From Burkholderiaceae bacterium (GTDB lineage Bacteria > Pseudomonadota > Gammaproteobacteria > Burkholderiales > Burkholderiaceae_C), in assembly GCA_028685665.1 (NCBI GenBank), contig JAQUDN010000004.1, forward strand, positions 1 through 49,077: 49,077 bases of DNA, in the 5' to 3' direction. Of this stretch, positions 2,551 through 44,576 are shown one piece after another (position 1 is the stretch's first letter; every line of letters begins with the position of its first letter). The notes below the pieces were generated by a model. The model did not search any database and was not told where the DNA came from. It saw nothing but the letters and a program-made list of their open reading frames with translations. Both the position numbers and the translations under genes were made by a program.

Positions 2551-3039
2551 TTAACCGGAAATGAAACTGGGCCAGACCGGAAACTGCAGCTTCAGCGCCA
2601 GGACGAACGCCACATAGCTGCCCGCCGCCAGCACCGTGGCCAGAATGAACACCGCCTTGGCTGCAAACTCTTCGCCCGCCAGGCTGGCGATGAAGGCCAA
2701 AGCGTAAATCGCCACGATCAGGCCCATGGCGGGAATGCCCAGGCTGGGCAGACCGGCCAGCAGCACGCCGAAGGCCAGGTTGGCGGCGAGGATGAAGAAC
2801 AGCGGCTTCCAGGCCCATTTGCCGATCTTGTCGCCGTCCTGGGTTTCCACCACGGTCGCATTGAAGGTGATGACCAGACCGATCACGGCCAGCAAGATGC
2901 CCAGCATCAGGGGGAAATAGCCTGGCCCCATGCGGGCGCCAGAGCCGACGCTGTACGTGGTTGCTCCCCACGCAAATGCGCCACCGACCCCCATGAACAT
3001 GAGGCCGGAAAAAAAGTCTTTTTGACTCTTGATTTTCAC
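2551..3039 (-). CDS. tctB: Tripartite tricarboxylate transporter small membrane subunit, TctB family
   Basis: About 162 residues with four predicted membrane segments: FFSGLMFMGVGGAFAWG, a segment near YFPLMLGILLAVIGLVI, the pair around FFILAANLAFGVLLAG and LIVAIYALAFIASLAG, and a final hydrophobic stretch. The SGARMGPGYFPLMLG motif is characteristic of TctB. The ORF track extends to 3114, but TAGGAG lies just before a GTG at 3039 (protein starting MKIKSQKDFF), which I take as the start. It is the first gene of the tctBA unit. Confidence 0.9.
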   Translation of the reverse strand: MKIKSQKDFFSGLMFMGVGGAFAWGATTYSVGSGARMGPGYFPLMLGILLAVIGLVITFNATVVETQDGDKIGKWAWKPLFFILAANLAFGVLLAGLPSLGIPAMGLIVAIYALAFIASLAGEEFAAKAVFILATVLAAGSYVAFVLALKLQFPVWPSFISG

Positions 3040-3200
3040 GGAATAACTCCTAGACGACGATCCAAGGGTGGGAATTGTGTCGCCGATATGGGCTCCGCCC
3101 CATGTGGATTCCACCTACGGAACGGCCGGGGTTTACCCTGATCCAGCCAGGCCCTGCGCCGGCCCGATCGCCCCCGCCAGCGCGGGGACAAAACCCCGGC

Positions 3201-5006
3201 TCACTGGGGTGGCGGCGTCGAGGCCATGACCTCGTCCAGGGTGGTCAGGCCCTGGGCCACGCGCAGGGCGCCGGCCATGCGCAGCGGGGTCATGCCATCG
3301 GCCACGGCCTGGTGGCGCAACTGGTCCAGCACGGGCGTGGCGGTGATGCCCTGCTTGAGCGCAGGCGTCACCGTGAGCAGCTCGTACAGGCCCATGCGCC
3401 CCCGGAACCCCGTCATGCGGCAGTCCACGCAGCCCACCGGCCGGTAGGGGTGGTAGCCCCCGCCCAGCGTCCAGGGCTTGACGGCCTCGGCCAGGGCGGC
3501 GGGCGCGCTTTCGTCGTCCACCTGCTTGCACTGCTTGCACAGGGTGCGCACCAGGCGCTGGGCCAGCACGCCGAGCAGGGTGGCGTTGATCAGGTAGGCC
3601 GGTACGCCCAGCTCCAGCAACCGCGAAATCGCCGCGGGCGCGTCGTTGGTGTGCAAGGTGGTGAAGACCAGGTGCCCCGTCAGCGCGGCCTGCACGGCCA
3701 TTTCGGCGGTCTCCAGGTCGCGGATCTCGCCCACCATGATGATGTCGGGGTCCTGGCGCATGAGGGCGCGCACGCCTTCGGCAAAGTTGAAGTCGATCTG
3801 CGGCTGCACCTGCGTCTGGTTGAAACGGGGCTCGATCATCTCGATCGGGTCCTCGACGGTGCTGACGTTGACCTCCTCAGTGGCCACCCGCTTGAGGGTG
3901 GAATACAGCGTGGTGGTCTTGCCCGAGCCGGTGGGCCCGGTCACCAGGATGATGCCGTGGGGCCGCTGGATCAGCGCCTCCCAGCGCCGCGCATCCTGCG
4001 GCGAGAACCCCAGCGCATCCAGGTCCTTGACCGCGTTGTCGGGATCGAAGATGCGCATGACCATCTTCTCGCCAAAGGCCGTGGGCAAGGTGGACAGGCG
4101 CATTTCCACCTCTTCGCCGCGCGGGTTGCGGGTCTTGATGCGGCCGTCCTGCGGGCGGCGCTTTTCCACCACGTCGATGCGGCCCAGCAGCTTGACGCGC
4201 GCGATCATGGCATTGAGCACCCCCATGGGCATCTGGTAGACCGGGTGCAGCACCCCGTCGATGCGGAAGCGGATCACGCCCTGCTCGCGCCGGGGTTCGA
4301 GGTGGATGTCGCTGGCCCGCTGGTCGAAGGCGTATTGCCACAGCCAATCGACGACCCGGATCACCGCCTGGTCGTTGGCATCGAGCTGCTTGTTGGTGTT
4401 GCCCAGTTCGACCAGCTGCTCGAAGCTGCTGGCACCGGCACTGCCGCCGGCCCGCTGGGCGGCACGCACCGACTTGGCCAGGGCGAAGAATTCCGCGGTG
4501 TAGCGGTGGATGTCCTCGGGATTGGCCACCACACGGCGCACGGGCCGGCGCGCCTGGCGCTCCACCTCGGCCAGCCAGTCGGTCTGGAAAGGCTCGGCTG
4601 TAGCCACGACCACCTCCTCGGGCGTGGCCTGCACGGGCAGCAGCTTGTGCCGCTCGGCGTAGGTAGCGCTCATGGTGTCGGAGACCCGGGCCACGTCCAC
4701 CTTGAGGGGGTCGATGCGCAGGTAGGGCAGGCCGCTGCGCTGGGCCAGGTACTCGGTCAGCATCTCCAGGTCGAGCGCTCGCCCATCGCTGGCGCGCTCC
4801 ATCGACACGCTGGCCAGGCGCACCAGGGGGTGCAGCCGGCTTTCGGCCTGGGAGCAGCGCGCCACGGTGCGCCGGGCCTCGTCGGTGGTGATCACCCCGT
4901 CGGTGCACAGCCAGTTCACCAGCATGCGCCAGTCCAGGGGGCCGACATAGGTCTCAGGCACCGCAGCGGAAGAGGCGGCATGCACAGAGGCAGGGACGCG
5001 TTTCAT
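3201..5006 (-). CDS. GspE/PulE/PilB-family type II secretion or type IV pilus ATPase
   Basis: 601 residues. The N-terminal part (about residues 75-170) looks like the MshEN/T2SSE_N domain. The C-terminal ATPase has Walker A GPTGSGKTTTLYS, an Asp box (IEPRFNQTQVQPQID), Walker B-like RQDPDIIMVGEIRD, a His box (LTGHLVFTTLHTNDAP) and a tetracysteine zinc site (CKQCK ... CVDCR). These are the hallmarks of hexameric ATPases that drive pseudopilus or pilus assembly. It is 30 bp behind the spermidine-synthase-like gene and appears to be last in that operon. No GspF/PilC or prepilin gene is next to it, so whether it serves type II secretion, type IV pili or another filament is open. Confidence 0.88.
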   Translation of the reverse strand: MKRVPASVHAASSAAVPETYVGPLDWRMLVNWLCTDGVITTDEARRTVARCSQAESRLHPLVRLASVSMERASDGRALDLEMLTEYLAQRSGLPYLRIDPLKVDVARVSDTMSATYAERHKLLPVQATPEEVVVATAEPFQTDWLAEVERQARRPVRRVVANPEDIHRYTAEFFALAKSVRAAQRAGGSAGASSFEQLVELGNTNKQLDANDQAVIRVVDWLWQYAFDQRASDIHLEPRREQGVIRFRIDGVLHPVYQMPMGVLNAMIARVKLLGRIDVVEKRRPQDGRIKTRNPRGEEVEMRLSTLPTAFGEKMVMRIFDPDNAVKDLDALGFSPQDARRWEALIQRPHGIILVTGPTGSGKTTTLYSTLKRVATEEVNVSTVEDPIEMIEPRFNQTQVQPQIDFNFAEGVRALMRQDPDIIMVGEIRDLETAEMAVQAALTGHLVFTTLHTNDAPAAISRLLELGVPAYLINATLLGVLAQRLVRTLCKQCKQVDDESAPAALAEAVKPWTLGGGYHPYRPVGCVDCRMTGFRGRMGLYELLTVTPALKQGITATPVLDQLRHQAVADGMTPLRMAGALRVAQGLTTLDEVMASTPPPQ

Positions 5007-7433: not shown

Positions 7434-8525
7434 ATGACCGAATCGACCGCCTTGAACCCCACCGCCCCCACCGGCTCCACGCCCGCCCCCGCGCTGGGCT
7501 ACCCCTTTGCCAGCCCGCCCCTGCCCGGCCAGACCCTCGAAGTCGCACCCGGGGTGCACTGGATTCGCATGCCCCTGCCGTTCTCGCTGGACCACATCAA
7601 CCTGTGGGCCCTGGAAGACGGCGAAGGCTGGGCCCTGGTCGATACCGGGGTCTGCAACGAAATCACCCTGGACACCTGGCGCACGCTGTTCAGCACCCTG
7701 CTGCAAGGCCGCCCGGTCACCCGGGTGTTCGTGACGCACATGCACCCCGACCACATCGGCCTGGCCGGCTGGCTGACCCGCCATTTCGGTGCGCGCCTGT
7801 GGATGACGCGGCTCGAATACCTGCACTGCCGCGCCCTGGTCTCCGACACCGGGCGCCCAGCCCCCGCCGAAGGCCTGGCGTTCTACCGCCGCGCGGGCTG
7901 GGGCGACACGGCGCTGGAAGGCTACCAAACCCGTTTTGGCAACTTCGGCAAAGTGATCCATGCCCTGCCCGACAGCTACCGGCGCATCCAGCAGGGCGAA
8001 GCCGTGCAGATCGGCGGCCGCCGCTGGGAAATCTGGGTGGGCGCAGGCCATTCGCCCGAACACGCCTGCCTGTACTGCCCCGAGCAGGGGCTGTTCATTT
8101 CAGGCGACCAGGTCTTGCCGCGCATTTCCTCGAACGTGTCGGTGTACCCGGTCGAGCCCGAGGCCAACCCCATGGCCGAATGGAACGACTCCCTGGCCCG
8201 GCTGCGGCGCGACATCCCCGACGACGTGCTGGTGCTGCCCTCGCACAACGACTGCTTCCGGGGCCTGCACACCCGCATCACGCAACTGCAAAGCGGCCAG
8301 GACAAGGCCATGGAGCGCCTGCGCCGCAGCCTGCGCGAACCGCGCCGCGCCGTCGATGTGTTTGGCGCGCTGTTTGCCCGCCCGATCACCGAAGCCCAGC
8401 ACTCGCTGATCAGCCTGGCCACCGGCGAAAGCCTGGCCTGCCTGAACTACCTGGTGCACACCGGAGAAGCCGTCTGCGAAGCCGATGCGCAGGGCGTGGA
8501 CTGGTACCGGCTCCGCGCCGGCTGA
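7434..8525 (+). CDS. MBL-fold metallo-hydrolase
   Basis: 363 residues. Metal ligands of the metallo-beta-lactamase fold are visible in order: THMHPDHIG (HxHxDH, about residue 101), GHSPEH, SGDQVLP and a late PSHN. The C-terminal about 90 residues form an added helical region often seen in MBL proteins annotated as glyoxalase II-like or hydroxyacyl hydrolase-like. It is not a resistance enzyme on this evidence; the substrate is unknown. It converges with the creatininase gene 20 bp away. Confidence 0.88.
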   Translation: MTESTALNPTAPTGSTPAPALGYPFASPPLPGQTLEVAPGVHWIRMPLPFSLDHINLWALEDGEGWALVDTGVCNEITLDTWRTLFSTLLQGRPVTRVFVTHMHPDHIGLAGWLTRHFGARLWMTRLEYLHCRALVSDTGRPAPAEGLAFYRRAGWGDTALEGYQTRFGNFGKVIHALPDSYRRIQQGEAVQIGGRRWEIWVGAGHSPEHACLYCPEQGLFISGDQVLPRISSNVSVYPVEPEANPMAEWNDSLARLRRDIPDDVLVLPSHNDCFRGLHTRITQLQSGQDKAMERLRRSLREPRRAVDVFGALFARPITEAQHSLISLATGESLACLNYLVHTGEAVCEADAQGVDWYRLRAG

Positions 8526-31961: not shown

Positions 31962-33083
31962 ATGACTTCCACCGCCTTCGCCCCCCTGCACAACGACACC
32001 TTTTTGCGCGCCTGCCGCCGCCAGGCCACCGACTACACGCCCCTGTGGCTGATGCGCCAGGCCGGCCGCTACCTGCCGGAATACAAGGCCACGCGCGCCC
32101 AGGCCGGCAGCTTCATGGGGCTGGCCACCAACGTCGATTACGCCACCGAGGTCACGCTGCAGCCCCTGGAGCGCTTTCCGCTGGACGCCGCCATCTTGTT
32201 CAGCGACATCCTCACCGTGCCCGACGCCATGGGCCTGGGCCTGAGCTTTGCCGAGGGCGAGGGCCCGCGCTTCGCCCAGGTGGTGCGCGACGAGGCGGCG
32301 GTGAATCAACTCGCCGTGCCGGACATGGACAAGCTGCGCTATGTGTTCGACGCCGTCACCAGCATCCGCAAAGCGCTGAACGGCCGCGTGCCGCTGATCG
32401 GCTTCTCGGGCAGCCCCTGGACACTGGCCTGCTACATGGTCGAGGGCAAGGGCAGCGACGACTACCGCCGGGTCAAGACGCTGATGTACAGCCGCCCCGA
32501 CCTGATGCACCGCATCCTGGCCATCAACGCCGACAGCGTGGCGCAGTACCTGAACGCGCAGATCGACGCCGGCGCCCAGGCGGTGATGATTTTTGACAGC
32601 TGGGGCGGCGTGCTGGCCGATGGCGCCTTCCAGGCCTTCAGCCTGGCCTACACCGCCCGCGTGCTGGCGCAATTGAAGCGCACGGGCGTCGATGGGCAGG
32701 ACGTGCCGCGCATCGTCTTCACCAAGGGCGGCGCGCTGTGGCTGGACGACATGAACGGCCTGGATTGCGAAGTGCTGGGCCTGGACTGGACGGCCAACCT
32801 GGGCAAGGCCCGCGCCCTGGTCGGCGGCGCGGTGGGCGGCCCCGGCAAGGCGCTGCAGGGCAATATCGACCCGAACGTGCTGTTTGCCCCGCCCGCGCAG
32901 ATCGCCACCGAGGTGGCCCGGGTGCTGGACAGCTTTGGCGCGCCCCACACCGACAAGACCACCACCGGCCCCACCCACATCTTCAACCTGGGCCATGGCA
33001 TCAGCCAGTTCACCCCGCCCGAGCACGTGGCCGCGCTGGTGGAGGCGGTGCACCGCCATTCGCGCGCGCAACGCCAGGGGTGA
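31962..33083 (+). CDS. hemE: Uroporphyrinogen decarboxylase
   Basis: 373 residues, normal for HemE. Conserved segments are [19 protein letters not shown] near the N-terminus, [50 protein letters not shown] and [18 protein letters not shown]. The enzyme decarboxylates uroporphyrinogen III to coproporphyrinogen III in haem synthesis. It stands upstream of a 660-bp spacer with DnaA boxes and then priA, an arrangement that may be related to replication. Confidence 0.97.
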
Positions 33084-33218
33084 AGGGCCGCCTTGCCCAC
33101 TGCCCAAACAAGAGGCAATGCGACTTATGCACAGCGGCAGGACAAGTCGCTTGGGGATTTTCAGGGGATTTCCATCGGGCCTGAAAATCCAAAAACCGTG
33201 ATAAACCCTTGATTCATT

Positions 33219-33240
33219 TGATTTTTTTGATAGCAAGCGG
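33219..33240. repeat. Dispersed AT-rich short repeat in hemE-priA spacer
   Basis: TGATTTTTTTGATAGCAAGC GG matches the core of the dispersed element (TTTTTGATAGCnnGCG). It forms part of the AT-rich tract between the first two DnaA boxes. Confidence 0.45.
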
Positions 33241-33371
33241 CCGCCCTCTGCCCCACTCCGCGCCCCACCAGGCCCCATGGCAAGGATTCCATGCCAGGGA
33301 TGTCAACAAAGTTATCCACAGAAATCCGGAAAAACCTCCCAAAGCCCTTGCAGATCAAGCACTTGCGCACA

Positions 33372-33397
33372 CCGGGCCCGAAAAGCCCGGGGTTTTT
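33372..33397 (+). terminator. Hairpin with T-run, probable hemE terminator
   Basis: CCGGGC (33372-33377) pairs with GCCCGG (33385-33390) and is followed by GGTTTTT. It lies 290 bp after hemE between the two DnaA-box periods, so it could close readthrough before priA. Confidence 0.55.
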
Positions 33398-33413
33398 CTG
33401 CCTTGCCTAGCAT

Positions 33414-33427
33414 ATTTCGGCCGAAAT
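33414..33427. promoter_or_regulatory. Perfect 14-bp palindrome
   Basis: ATTTCGGCCGAAAT is a perfect palindrome just before the third DnaA box. It could be a dimeric regulator site; no family can be named. Confidence 0.3.
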
Positions 33428-33743
33428 GGCAGGCTCCCAGCCCTTTGCCCCAGGCACTTATGCACACCAAGAAGCCAGCGACCCGGGAAAATACACCGTC
33501 TCCCAGACCCTCTGGGCCGGGGAACACCCGAAAGAAAGATCGTTGATTCATAAAGGTTTTTTCTGCATGCCGATTTTGTGGGCAATCTGCTGTGCGCTCC
33601 ATTTGGCGCGGCTTGCGCGGGCATCGCGACAGGATGTCAACAAAGTTATCCACAGAAACCTGGGATATCTGCCAAAAACCCAATGGCGTCAACGACTTAG
33701 CCCCCGCCTTTGAAAATCCACTGTCACAACGCCCGCTAACGCC

Positions 33744-35879
33744 GTGTCTGCCCTTTCCTTCACCGTCCAGGTGGCCTTGCACACCCCGTCGCACAGCGGG
33801 GTCGGCGACCTGCTGAGCTATGCCTGCGAGCGCCCGCTGCCCCCCGGCACCCTGGTGCGCGTGCCGCTGGGCTCGCGCGAGGTGCTGGGCGTGGTCTGGG
33901 AAGCCGCCGAAGGGCCAGGCGACGGGCCCGCCGACCGGGCCCTGCGCCCGGTGGCGGGCGTGCTCGACGGCCTGGCCCCCCTGGATGCCGGCTGGCGGCG
34001 CCTGGTGGGTTTTGCGGCGCGCTACTACCAGCGCGCGCTGGGCGAGGTCGCGCTCGCCGCCCTGCCGCCGCAGCTGCGCGATTTGCGCCCCGAGCAGCTG
34101 GCCCGCCGCCTGCGCCGCCCGGGGCCGGCCGACGGGACCGCAGCAGAGACTATCAAAAACATAGCGCTCAGCGCAGAGCAGGAAAGCGTCAGAGCCCAAA
34201 TCTCTGCCGAAAAAGGCCCGTTCCTGCTGTTTGGCAGCACGGGCAGCGGCAAGACCGAGGTCTACCTGCGCTGCGTGCAGGAGGTGCTCGAAGCCGACCC
34301 GGGCGATGGCCTACCGGCCCAGGCGCTGGTGATGGTGCCCGAGATCAACCTCACGCAGCAGCTCGAAGAGCGCTTCACCTCGCGCTTTACCGGCCGCTTT
34401 GGCGCCGGCGCCGTGGTGTCGCTGCACAGCGGCATGACCCACCCCCAGCGCCTCAAGAGCTGGCTGGCGGCGCATTCGGGCCAAGCGCGCATCGTGCTGG
34501 GCACGCGCATGGCGGTGTTTGCCAGCCTGCCCGGGCTGAAGATGATCGTGGTCGATGAAGAGCACGACCCCAGTTACAAGCAGCAGGAAGGGGCCCGCTA
34601 CTCGGCGCGCGACCTGGCCCTGTGGCGCGGGCATGCCCAGGGCGCCAAAGTGCTGCTGGGCTCGGCCACGCCCTCGCTGGAGAGCTGGCATGCCAGCCGG
34701 CCCGCCACCCCCGAAGACCCGGGCGGCGGGCGCTATGTGCGCCTGCACATGCCCAGCCGCATTGGCGCGGGCGAGCTGCCCAAGGTGCGCCGGGTGGACA
34801 TGAACCAGCAGCCCCGGCGCACGGTGTTCTCGGCGCCGCTGCTGGCGGCCATCACCGAGCGCATCGCGCGCGGCGAGCAGTGCATGGTGCTGCTGAACCG
34901 GCGTGGCTACGCCCCGGTGCTGCACTGCGCCGACTGCGAATGGAAGAGCGACTGCCCCCACTGCAGCGCCTTTCAGGTCTTCCACAAGCAGGACCGCACC
35001 CTGCGCTGCCACCACTGCGGCTACACCGTGCGCGTGCCCTGGGCCTGCCCCGGCTGCGGCAGCCCCGACATCGCCCCGATCGGCCGGGGCACCGAGCAGC
35101 TCGAAGAACAGCTGGGCACCCTGCTGGCCGGCGTGCTGCGCCCCGACGGCCAGCCGGTCCGCATCGCCCGCATCGATGCCGACACCACCCGGCTCAAGGG
35201 CGCGCTGGAAAGCCAGCTCGCGCAGGTGCATTCCGGCGAGGTCGATGTGCTGGTGGGCACGCAGATGATTGCCAAGGGGCATGACTTCCGGCGCATCACG
35301 CTGGTGGCGGCCGTGCAGCCCGATGGCGCGCTGTTCTCCAGCGACTTCCGGGCGCCCGAGCGGCTGTTTGCGCTGCTGATGCAGGCCGGCGGGCGCGCGG
35401 GGCGCGATGCCGCCTACATGGCCGCACAAGGCAGCCGCTGCGAGATGTGGGTGCAGAGCTTTCACCCCAAGCACGCGGTGTTCGAGGCGCTGCGCCAGCA
35501 CGACTACCCGGCGTTTGCCGCCCAGCAGCTCCAGGAACGCAAGGACGCGGCCATGCCGCCCTTCGCCTTCCAGGCCCTGGTGCGCGCCGACGCCCGCACC
35601 CAGGAGGTGGCCCAGGCCTTTCTGAGCGCCGCCAGCGCCGCCGCCCACGCGGCCGGCCTGCCGGGGCTGGAATGGGTCACGCTCTACCCCGCCGTGCCCC
35701 TGGCCATCCAGCGGGTGGCCAATGTCGAGCGGGCGCAGATGCTGCTGGAAAGCCCCCACCGCGCCGTGCTCCAGCGCTTTCTGGCCGCCTGGCAGCCGGT
35801 GCTGCAGGCCACCCGCAGCCAGCCCGAACACAAAGGCCTGGTCCGCTGGCTGGTGGATGTGGACCCGCTGACGATCTGA
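33744..35879 (+). CDS. priA: Primosomal protein N' (PriA), replication restart helicase
   Basis: 711 residues, GTG start at 33744. Domains in order: the N-terminal 3'-DNA-binding domain (SFTVQVALHTPSHSGVGDLLSY), helicase Walker A FGSTGSGKTEVYL, a DEAH-type box VDEEHDPSYKQQEGARY, LGSATPSLESWHASR and the zinc-binding cysteine arrays CADCEWKSDCPHC and CHHCGY...CPGCGS. The helicase motif GTQMIAKGHDF is also present. PriA reloads the replisome at stalled forks. One copy of the dispersed repeat is inside the linker between DNA-binding and helicase parts (ETIKNIALSAEQ). It converges with the sfnR-like gene. Confidence 0.95.
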   Translation: MSALSFTVQVALHTPSHSGVGDLLSYACERPLPPGTLVRVPLGSREVLGVVWEAAEGPGDGPADRALRPVAGVLDGLAPLDAGWRRLVGFAARYYQRALGEVALAALPPQLRDLRPEQLARRLRRPGPADGTAAETIKNIALSAEQESVRAQISAEKGPFLLFGSTGSGKTEVYLRCVQEVLEADPGDGLPAQALVMVPEINLTQQLEERFTSRFTGRFGAGAVVSLHSGMTHPQRLKSWLAAHSGQARIVLGTRMAVFASLPGLKMIVVDEEHDPSYKQQEGARYSARDLALWRGHAQGAKVLLGSATPSLESWHASRPATPEDPGGGRYVRLHMPSRIGAGELPKVRRVDMNQQPRRTVFSAPLLAAITERIARGEQCMVLLNRRGYAPVLHCADCEWKSDCPHCSAFQVFHKQDRTLRCHHCGYTVRVPWACPGCGSPDIAPIGRGTEQLEEQLGTLLAGVLRPDGQPVRIARIDADTTRLKGALESQLAQVHSGEVDVLVGTQMIAKGHDFRRITLVAAVQPDGALFSSDFRAPERLFALLMQAGGRAGRDAAYMAAQGSRCEMWVQSFHPKHAVFEALRQHDYPAFAAQQLQERKDAAMPPFAFQALVRADARTQEVAQAFLSAASAAAHAAGLPGLEWVTLYPAVPLAIQRVANVERAQMLLESPHRAVLQRFLAAWQPVLQATRSQPEHKGLVRWLVDVDPLTI
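34149..34176. repeat. Dispersed AT-rich short repeat inside priA
   Basis: ACTATCAAAAACATAGCGCTCAGCGCAG, in frame, encodes TIKNIALSAE in the PriA interdomain linker. Surrounding codons are GC-rich, so the tract stands out as an insertion-like patch. Confidence 0.6.
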
Positions 35880-44476: not shown

Positions 44477-44489
44477 CAAGTCCTTGATT
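44477..44489 (-). promoter_or_regulatory. Perfect IHF consensus site, promoter 3
   Basis: On the minus strand AATCAAGGACTTG fits WATCAANNNNTTR without mismatch and stands exactly as far from the sigma-54 promoter as the site at promoter 2. Confidence 0.7.
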
Positions 44490-44505
44490 TCATTGGCATC
44501 GGCAG

Positions 44506-44522
44506 GTGGCATGACTTTCGCT
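44506..44522 (+). promoter_or_regulatory. Sigma-54 promoter of the msuE-sfnG-liv operon
   Basis: GTGGCATG-ACTT-TCGCT; GG and GC are 10 bp apart. It shares TCGCTTAT with promoter 2. It lies 55 bp before the FMN reductase ATG. The rest of 44315-44505 is noncoding. Confidence 0.75.
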
Positions 44523-44576
44523 TATCCACAACAAACCAGAAAAATCCTCCTATCTATACATAAAGGTAATTTAGAA

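Follow-up and report, generated by a model that had tools for sequence, protein, structure and literature searches.

The closest described relatives of the element reported here are the DnaA-reactivating sequences of E. coli, DARS1 in bioD-uvrB (~813.1 kb) and DARS2 in the rppH-mutH spacer (2.97 Mb). To our knowledge, DnaA reactivation at DARS has been studied almost only in E. coli. Fis is required for DARS2 activity, and we know of no reported need for IHF at the 101-bp DARS1. Both loci have a core in which three DnaA boxes are identically spaced and box I is opposite to boxes II and III (PMC5742627). DARS2 adds sites for IHF and Fis, with TAAnnnnTTGATW as the IHF consensus (PMC8682772). A 2014 paper restricts the DARS2 core to E. 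coli and its gamma-proteobacterial relatives (PMC4245941), and a 2017 review places DARS in beta or gamma, naming no locus (PMC5742627). In the openly searchable literature on DARS with Burkholderia, betaproteobacteria, Pseudomonas or priA, elements at hemE-priA and xseA-exbB/D are not described. The loci in beta-proteobacteria, the distal box located ~187 bp away in helical phase, and the repeated occurrence of tandem duplication are new.

Tandem DnaA box units between hemE and priA

The window (the whole 49,077-nt stretch of DNA that we analyzed) belongs to an assembly of 3.37 Mb in 285 contigs, 88% complete, whose HemE is ~93% identical to that of Acidovorax. Genes hemE (31962–33083, + strand; TIGR01464, 392 bits) and priA (33744–35879, + strand; TIGR00595, 484 bits) flank a spacer at 33084–33743. 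It contains four perfect DnaA boxes, all on the + strand: TTATGCACA at 33125–33133 and 33458–33466, and TTATCCACA at 33312–33320 and 33646–33654. The distal box TTATGCACA precedes the core box TTATCCACA by 187 bp in unit 1 and 188 bp in unit 2, and the box periods are 333 and 334 bp. A 27-nt block, GGATGTCAACAAAGTTATCCACAGAAA, is present in identical copies at 33298 and 33632; TTGATTCAT, at 33209 and 33543, has the same 334-bp period as the block and the core boxes. The initial annotation had reported four same-strand boxes in two ~333-bp periods, together with these pair spacings, the common block and the two flanking genes. The boxes and periods proved exact to the base, and the remaining items were confirmed.

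Across the window, TTATNCACA is seen five times versus 0.35 expected, a count reached in 0 of 100 shuffles. The one match besides the spacer's four is a lone TTATCCACA at 44522, which lies 43 bp after an IHF-like CAAGTCCTTGATT. This segment (44479–44530) is flanked by a flavin-dependent monooxygenase-like ORF and an FMN-reductase-like ORF.

Each unit runs from the distal box through a predicted IHF site, 110 bp before the core box, to the core. In unit 1, the IHF site (TAAACCCTTGATT, 33202–33214, + strand) fits TAAnnnnTTGATW (PMC8682772) at 9/9 positions; its counterpart in unit 2 (AAGATCGTTGATT, 33536–33548, + strand) fits at 7/9. Box II, the core box, is perfect in both units. The box III position is occupied by ATGTCAACA in both (33300–33308 and 33634–33642, + strand), degenerate at 6/9. 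The inverted box I position is also degenerate, with 6/9 matches to TTWTNCACA in unit 1 (TTTTTCCGG, 33326–33334, – strand) and 5/9 in unit 2 (ATATCCCAG, 33660–33668, – strand). The latter is one base off TTATCCCAG, found at equal offset in core A of the E. coli DARS2 region. A second, downstream IHF-like sequence follows in unit 1 (GATCAAGCACTTG, 33353–33365, + strand), at the place where the family consensus is AATCAAGCACTTA, and the corresponding position in unit 2 is degenerate (CGTCAACGACTTA, 33687–33699, + strand).

RNAalifold returned 0 consensus pairs for the aligned units, so the element appears to act as DNA. The Rfam search gave no family above threshold, the two sub-threshold matches being to human lncRNA families. 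On these grounds we rejected a structured RNA.

Conservation in the Comamonadaceae

For the family comparison, we used 80 HemE-anchored loci. A single pair, TTATGCACA and TTATCCACA separated by 186–189 bp, is found in Variovorax, Rhodoferax, Limnohabitans, Curvibacter and others. Acidovorax, Paracidovorax, Simplicispira, Giesbergeria and Comamonas have two pairs in tandem, some of them partly lost. Because most genera have one unit and the Acidovorax/Comamonas clade has two, the window's four boxes are a tandem duplication of the family-wide unit. They represent a recent tandem copying of a DNA element that is itself old and very widely conserved. Boxes not shared by close relatives would, according to the initial annotation, have counted towards its refutation; the comparison with relatives did not refute it, and the spaced pair TTATGCACA-N170..199-TTATCCACA occurs in 192/401 family genomes, representing 75/141 genera. 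The reversed-pattern control gave zero in each genome listed (~400 family genomes searched).

In an alignment of 57 units, the invariant columns are both boxes, the ACAAAG that precedes the second one, and a TTGAT motif at its core. This motif, TAAGTnnTTGATT, fits the IHF consensus TAAnnnnTTGATW and lies at –109/–110 from the TTATCCACA box. Comamonadaceae hemE units score a mean of 8.2 of 9 for the IHF site; for box I the group is weak, at 5.0 of 9. Most also carry a second IHF consensus in opposite orientation, AATCAAGCACTTA, at about +40 from the core. Distances between the distal box and the core cluster at 176–180, 186–191 and 197–200 bp, and the gaps between the clusters are empty. The clusters are one helical turn apart, as would be expected if both sites must share a face of the helix.

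Two Acidovorax sp. genomes (L028 and L046) have a longer hemE-priA spacer (2.2 kb) and retain the element at its priA end, an arrangement that fits an operator and a DARS view alike. In two Comamonadaceae-like MAGs (L040 and L045), the element is missing from this site, where hemE and priA nearly abut (9–19 bp). Locus L091 has, downstream of priA, an extra full unit (7765–8023) as well as its upstream one.

The element across Burkholderiales and Gammaproteobacteria

We built two profiles, neither containing E. coli sequence. R1 is a sequence-only profile from 57 Comamonadaceae hemE-priA units, and R2 was trained on Burkholderiales units only. In the window, R1 matched unit 1, which was part of its training set (33120–33369, + strand; E 5.5e-23), and unit 2 (33454–33705, + strand; E 2e-35). 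R2 matched unit 2, which was outside its training set (33539–33694; E 2.5e-14). At E<0.01, R2 found nothing besides hemE-priA units in 469 kb of sequence from the window and Comamonas testosteroni.

R1 matches were obtained in 240/250 Burkholderiales genomes, usually two or three per genome. The main order-wide locations are hemE-priA and xseA-exbB/D; 19 of 20 second-locus matches examined, each from a different genome, adjoin xseA. The source genome has its own second element in the xseA-exbB/D spacer (C235:3453–3661, L160); this copy scores 8/9/7 and matches the three-box core better than those in the window do. Matches away from hemE, priA and xseA were seen at L187, L194 and L216.

The order-wide core has same-strand boxes at –12 and 0 and an inverted box at +14, with the IHF site at –109/–110. 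Outside the Comamonadaceae this core is sharper, reading TTnCCCACA-AAG-TTATCCACA-N5-TGTGGATAA. Mean scores (of 9) for box III, inverted box I and IHF are 7.7, 7.6 and 8.35 for order-wide hemE units (n = 20), and 7.6, 7.55 and 7.95 for xseA units (n = 22). For controls, we took 30 other perfect TTATNCACA sites from three genomes; these average 3.5, 3.3 and 4.6, and none of the 30 combines box I ≥7 with IHF ≥7.

R2 matches extend to 287/321 GTDB Gammaproteobacteria genomes, with E values down to 3e-23 and often beside priA. Among 30 gammaproteobacterial loci, ∼11 adjoin priA, the inverted +14 box is usually perfect, and the distal box is mainly at 187–191. One gammaproteobacterial homologue (L232) is near uvrB, a single case to be compared with DARS1 at bioD-uvrB. 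In the phylum sample, the three genomes of the same class listed without a match are 1.0–1.2 Mb; the other classes gave mixed results. A perfect Fis-like GnnYAnnnnnTRnnC at about –78 occurs in 13/29 gammaproteobacterial units, 7/20 order-wide hemE units and 4/85 Comamonadaceae units. In complete genomes, hemE-priA elements lie at 0.02–0.44 of the chromosome from dnaA, often <0.12, and xseA elements at 0.15–0.50. Tandem or triple units were also seen in another Burkholderiales family and in a gammaproteobacterium (L170, L169, L039, L236). Given such multiple copies in other lineages, duplication of the unit appears to be recurrent.

Comparison with DARS1, DARS2 and datA

In 65 kb of E. coli sequence, R1 gave exactly three matches, two in the DARS2 region (E 1.9e-7 and 2.7e-5) and one at DARS1 (E 3.3e-4), and none at oriC, the dnaA promoter or datA. 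In 265 kb, the top R2 ranks were DARS1 (33.1 bits) and two DARS2-region sites (30.2 and 26.6 bits), so that for both profiles the best matches in the E. coli sequence scanned are DARS1 and DARS2. The next R2 ranks were oriC (19.2 bits), datA (16.2 bits) and the nrdA promoter (14.3 bits), all without the IHF part.

DARS1 has TAATACACA, TTATCCACA and inverted TTATCCACT at exactly –12, 0 and +14, the same offsets as the three core boxes of the Burkholderiales element, and scores 8/8/7 (of 9) for box III, inverted box I and IHF. It differs from the element here in its locus and in having no distal same-strand box at about –187. DARS2 is likewise intergenic, with a three-box core, an IHF site ∼100–110 bp before it and an additional DnaA box beyond the IHF site. 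In the DARS2 region, two cores, their boxes placed by spacing, lie 316 bp from each other; the IHF-like sites are at –109 and –99, and core A scores 7/6/7. These R2 matches (L196:1130–1591) correspond to about 2969129–2969590 of E. coli K-12. The two same-orientation core-like matches recall the window's 334-bp tandem, and suggest that DARS2 itself may derive from a tandem pair. DARS2 differs from our element in locus, outer-box spacing and Fis arrangement, and its activity is proven in E. coli whereas that of the element is inferred. datA shares with the element an intergenic position at a control locus and the combination of DnaA boxes with an IHF site, but it lacks the opposed three-box core and has no R1 match.

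A probable DARS-type element

Collectively, these comparisons make it probable that the hemE-priA element is an intergenic element of DARS type, that is DnaA-reactivating, and tandemly duplicated in the window. The reading builds on the observed boxes, fixed spacings, IHF consensus, deep conservation, copy at xseA-exbB/D and similarity to DARS1 and DARS2. Reactivation is the best supported function because the consensus across the order reproduces the three-box core and IHF layout of E. coli DARS, with the IHF site at a fixed distance. From these sequences we infer protein binding, DNA bending, nucleotide exchange and a role for the distal box, as follows. ADP-DnaA would bind the core, with box I opposing boxes II and III, and IHF would bend the DNA ∼110 bp upstream. 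Through the bend, the same-strand distal box would reach the core from its position ∼187 bp away, and the assembled complex would make DnaA release ADP. Apo-DnaA would then be released and reload ATP, raising initiation capacity. The distal box may serve as a second contact in a loop, or as a feedback site like box V in E. coli DARS2. The source genome encodes Hda (TIGR03420, 214.6 bits versus a cut-off of 194.8), which makes an ATP/ADP-DnaA cycle plausible.

Several observations count against a DARS role: boxes I and III are weak in the window units, as is box I in the Comamonadaceae generally; the Fis-like motif is scarce in that family; the distance of hemE-priA from oriC is inconstant; and two MAGs have no hemE-priA spacer. 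In addition, a search of the source's 88%-complete assembly for bona fide IHF-alpha (himA) gave only sub-cut-off matches, which at this completeness is not decisive.

For the wider history, we lean towards a scenario in which DARS-type DnaA-IHF elements are ancestral and near-universal in GTDB Gammaproteobacteria (the former beta plus gamma), at about two per genome. The priA-linked copy would have an extra distal box in helical phase, DARS1 and DARS2 of E. coli would be relocated and derived forms, and tandem duplication would be a recurrent form of tuning. If the DARS reading is true, the loci would provide DARS candidates for Burkholderia, Bordetella, Ralstonia, Neisseria and Pseudomonas relatives, and DnaA cycling would be linked to priA, a gene of replication restart, and to xseA. 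Being nearly universal and alignable, they would also show, as an evolutionary profile, which of the boxes and spacings are important.

Alternative explanations

The element could instead be a DnaA-IHF operator for transcription of priA, and perhaps hemE, with DnaA bound ∼90–130 bp upstream tying replication-restart capacity to DnaA. It adjoins priA in many Burkholderiales and in ∼11 of the 30 gammaproteobacterial loci, and the second conserved IHF consensus after the core in Comamonadaceae is near priA. However, at xseA-exbB/D the same architecture recurs with a core that is not ahead of a replication-restart gene, the hemE-priA spacer contains no sigma-70-like promoter that we could find, and an operator leaves the match to DARS1 and DARS2 unexplained. 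We consider this explanation unlikely, and the initial annotation's proposal of DnaA control of priA gains from the position upstream of priA in many families and loses from the second locus. A DARS role and priA regulation could coexist. The same annotation had offered titration or reactivation. Reactivation fits best, given the three-box core and IHF site as in DARS, while titration fares poorly, since two to four boxes would represent a small capacity compared with other sites. IHF-dependent hydrolysis of DnaA-ATP, as at datA, would account for the pairing of DnaA boxes with an IHF site and for the origin-proximal position in several genomes (0.02–0.12 of the chromosome). Against this, three boxes so spaced, one of them opposed, make up the core of DARS and not the datA layout of PMC5742627, and the R2 match at datA covers a single box; the box/IHF arrangement of datA was not found in the element. 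Taken together, datA-like hydrolysis and plain titration seem improbable.

Chance, with unrelated boxes falling in AT-rich spacers, is scarcely credible. The spacers are indeed AT-rich, and R1 and R2 include an AT-rich stretch, but the invariant columns coincide with the boxes and the IHF core, and we rejected chance on the shuffles, the reversed-pattern controls and the specificity of R2. A former or alternative replication origin is very improbable. The Caulobacter origin, Cori, adjoins hemE, and perfect DnaA boxes clustered together with an IHF site beside hemE bring it to mind. In the complete genome of C. testosteroni NFYY023, however, dnaA starts at base 397 and the hemE-priA locus is at 335.6 kb; in strain OS-4, dnaA is ∼540 kb from the locus (∼336 kb in C. 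testosteroni). GC skew in NFYY023 is uniformly positive at 200, 325 and 450 kb, with sign flips near 18 kb and ∼2.0 Mb and no sign change at hemE-priA. Since skew is constant across the locus and dnaA is far away, the Caulobacter analogy is coincidental, the name of a neighboring gene being all that is shared. The skew and dnaA checks proposed in the initial annotation thus went against an origin, which we rejected; of its ‘old origin-like duplication’, the duplication stands, as one of the element in the Acidovorax/Comamonas clade. The source genome also has a cluster elsewhere that weighs against an origin at hemE. On its contig C198 (G000, 2975–3758; L106), six TTATCCACA boxes lie at a sign change of GC skew, ∼14 kb downstream of dnaA-dnaN-gyrB, and this is likely oriC. 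NFYY023 likewise has boxes at 14.5–18.4 kb after dnaA, near its ∼18-kb skew flip, and the origin seems to be displaced from dnaA in these Comamonadaceae.
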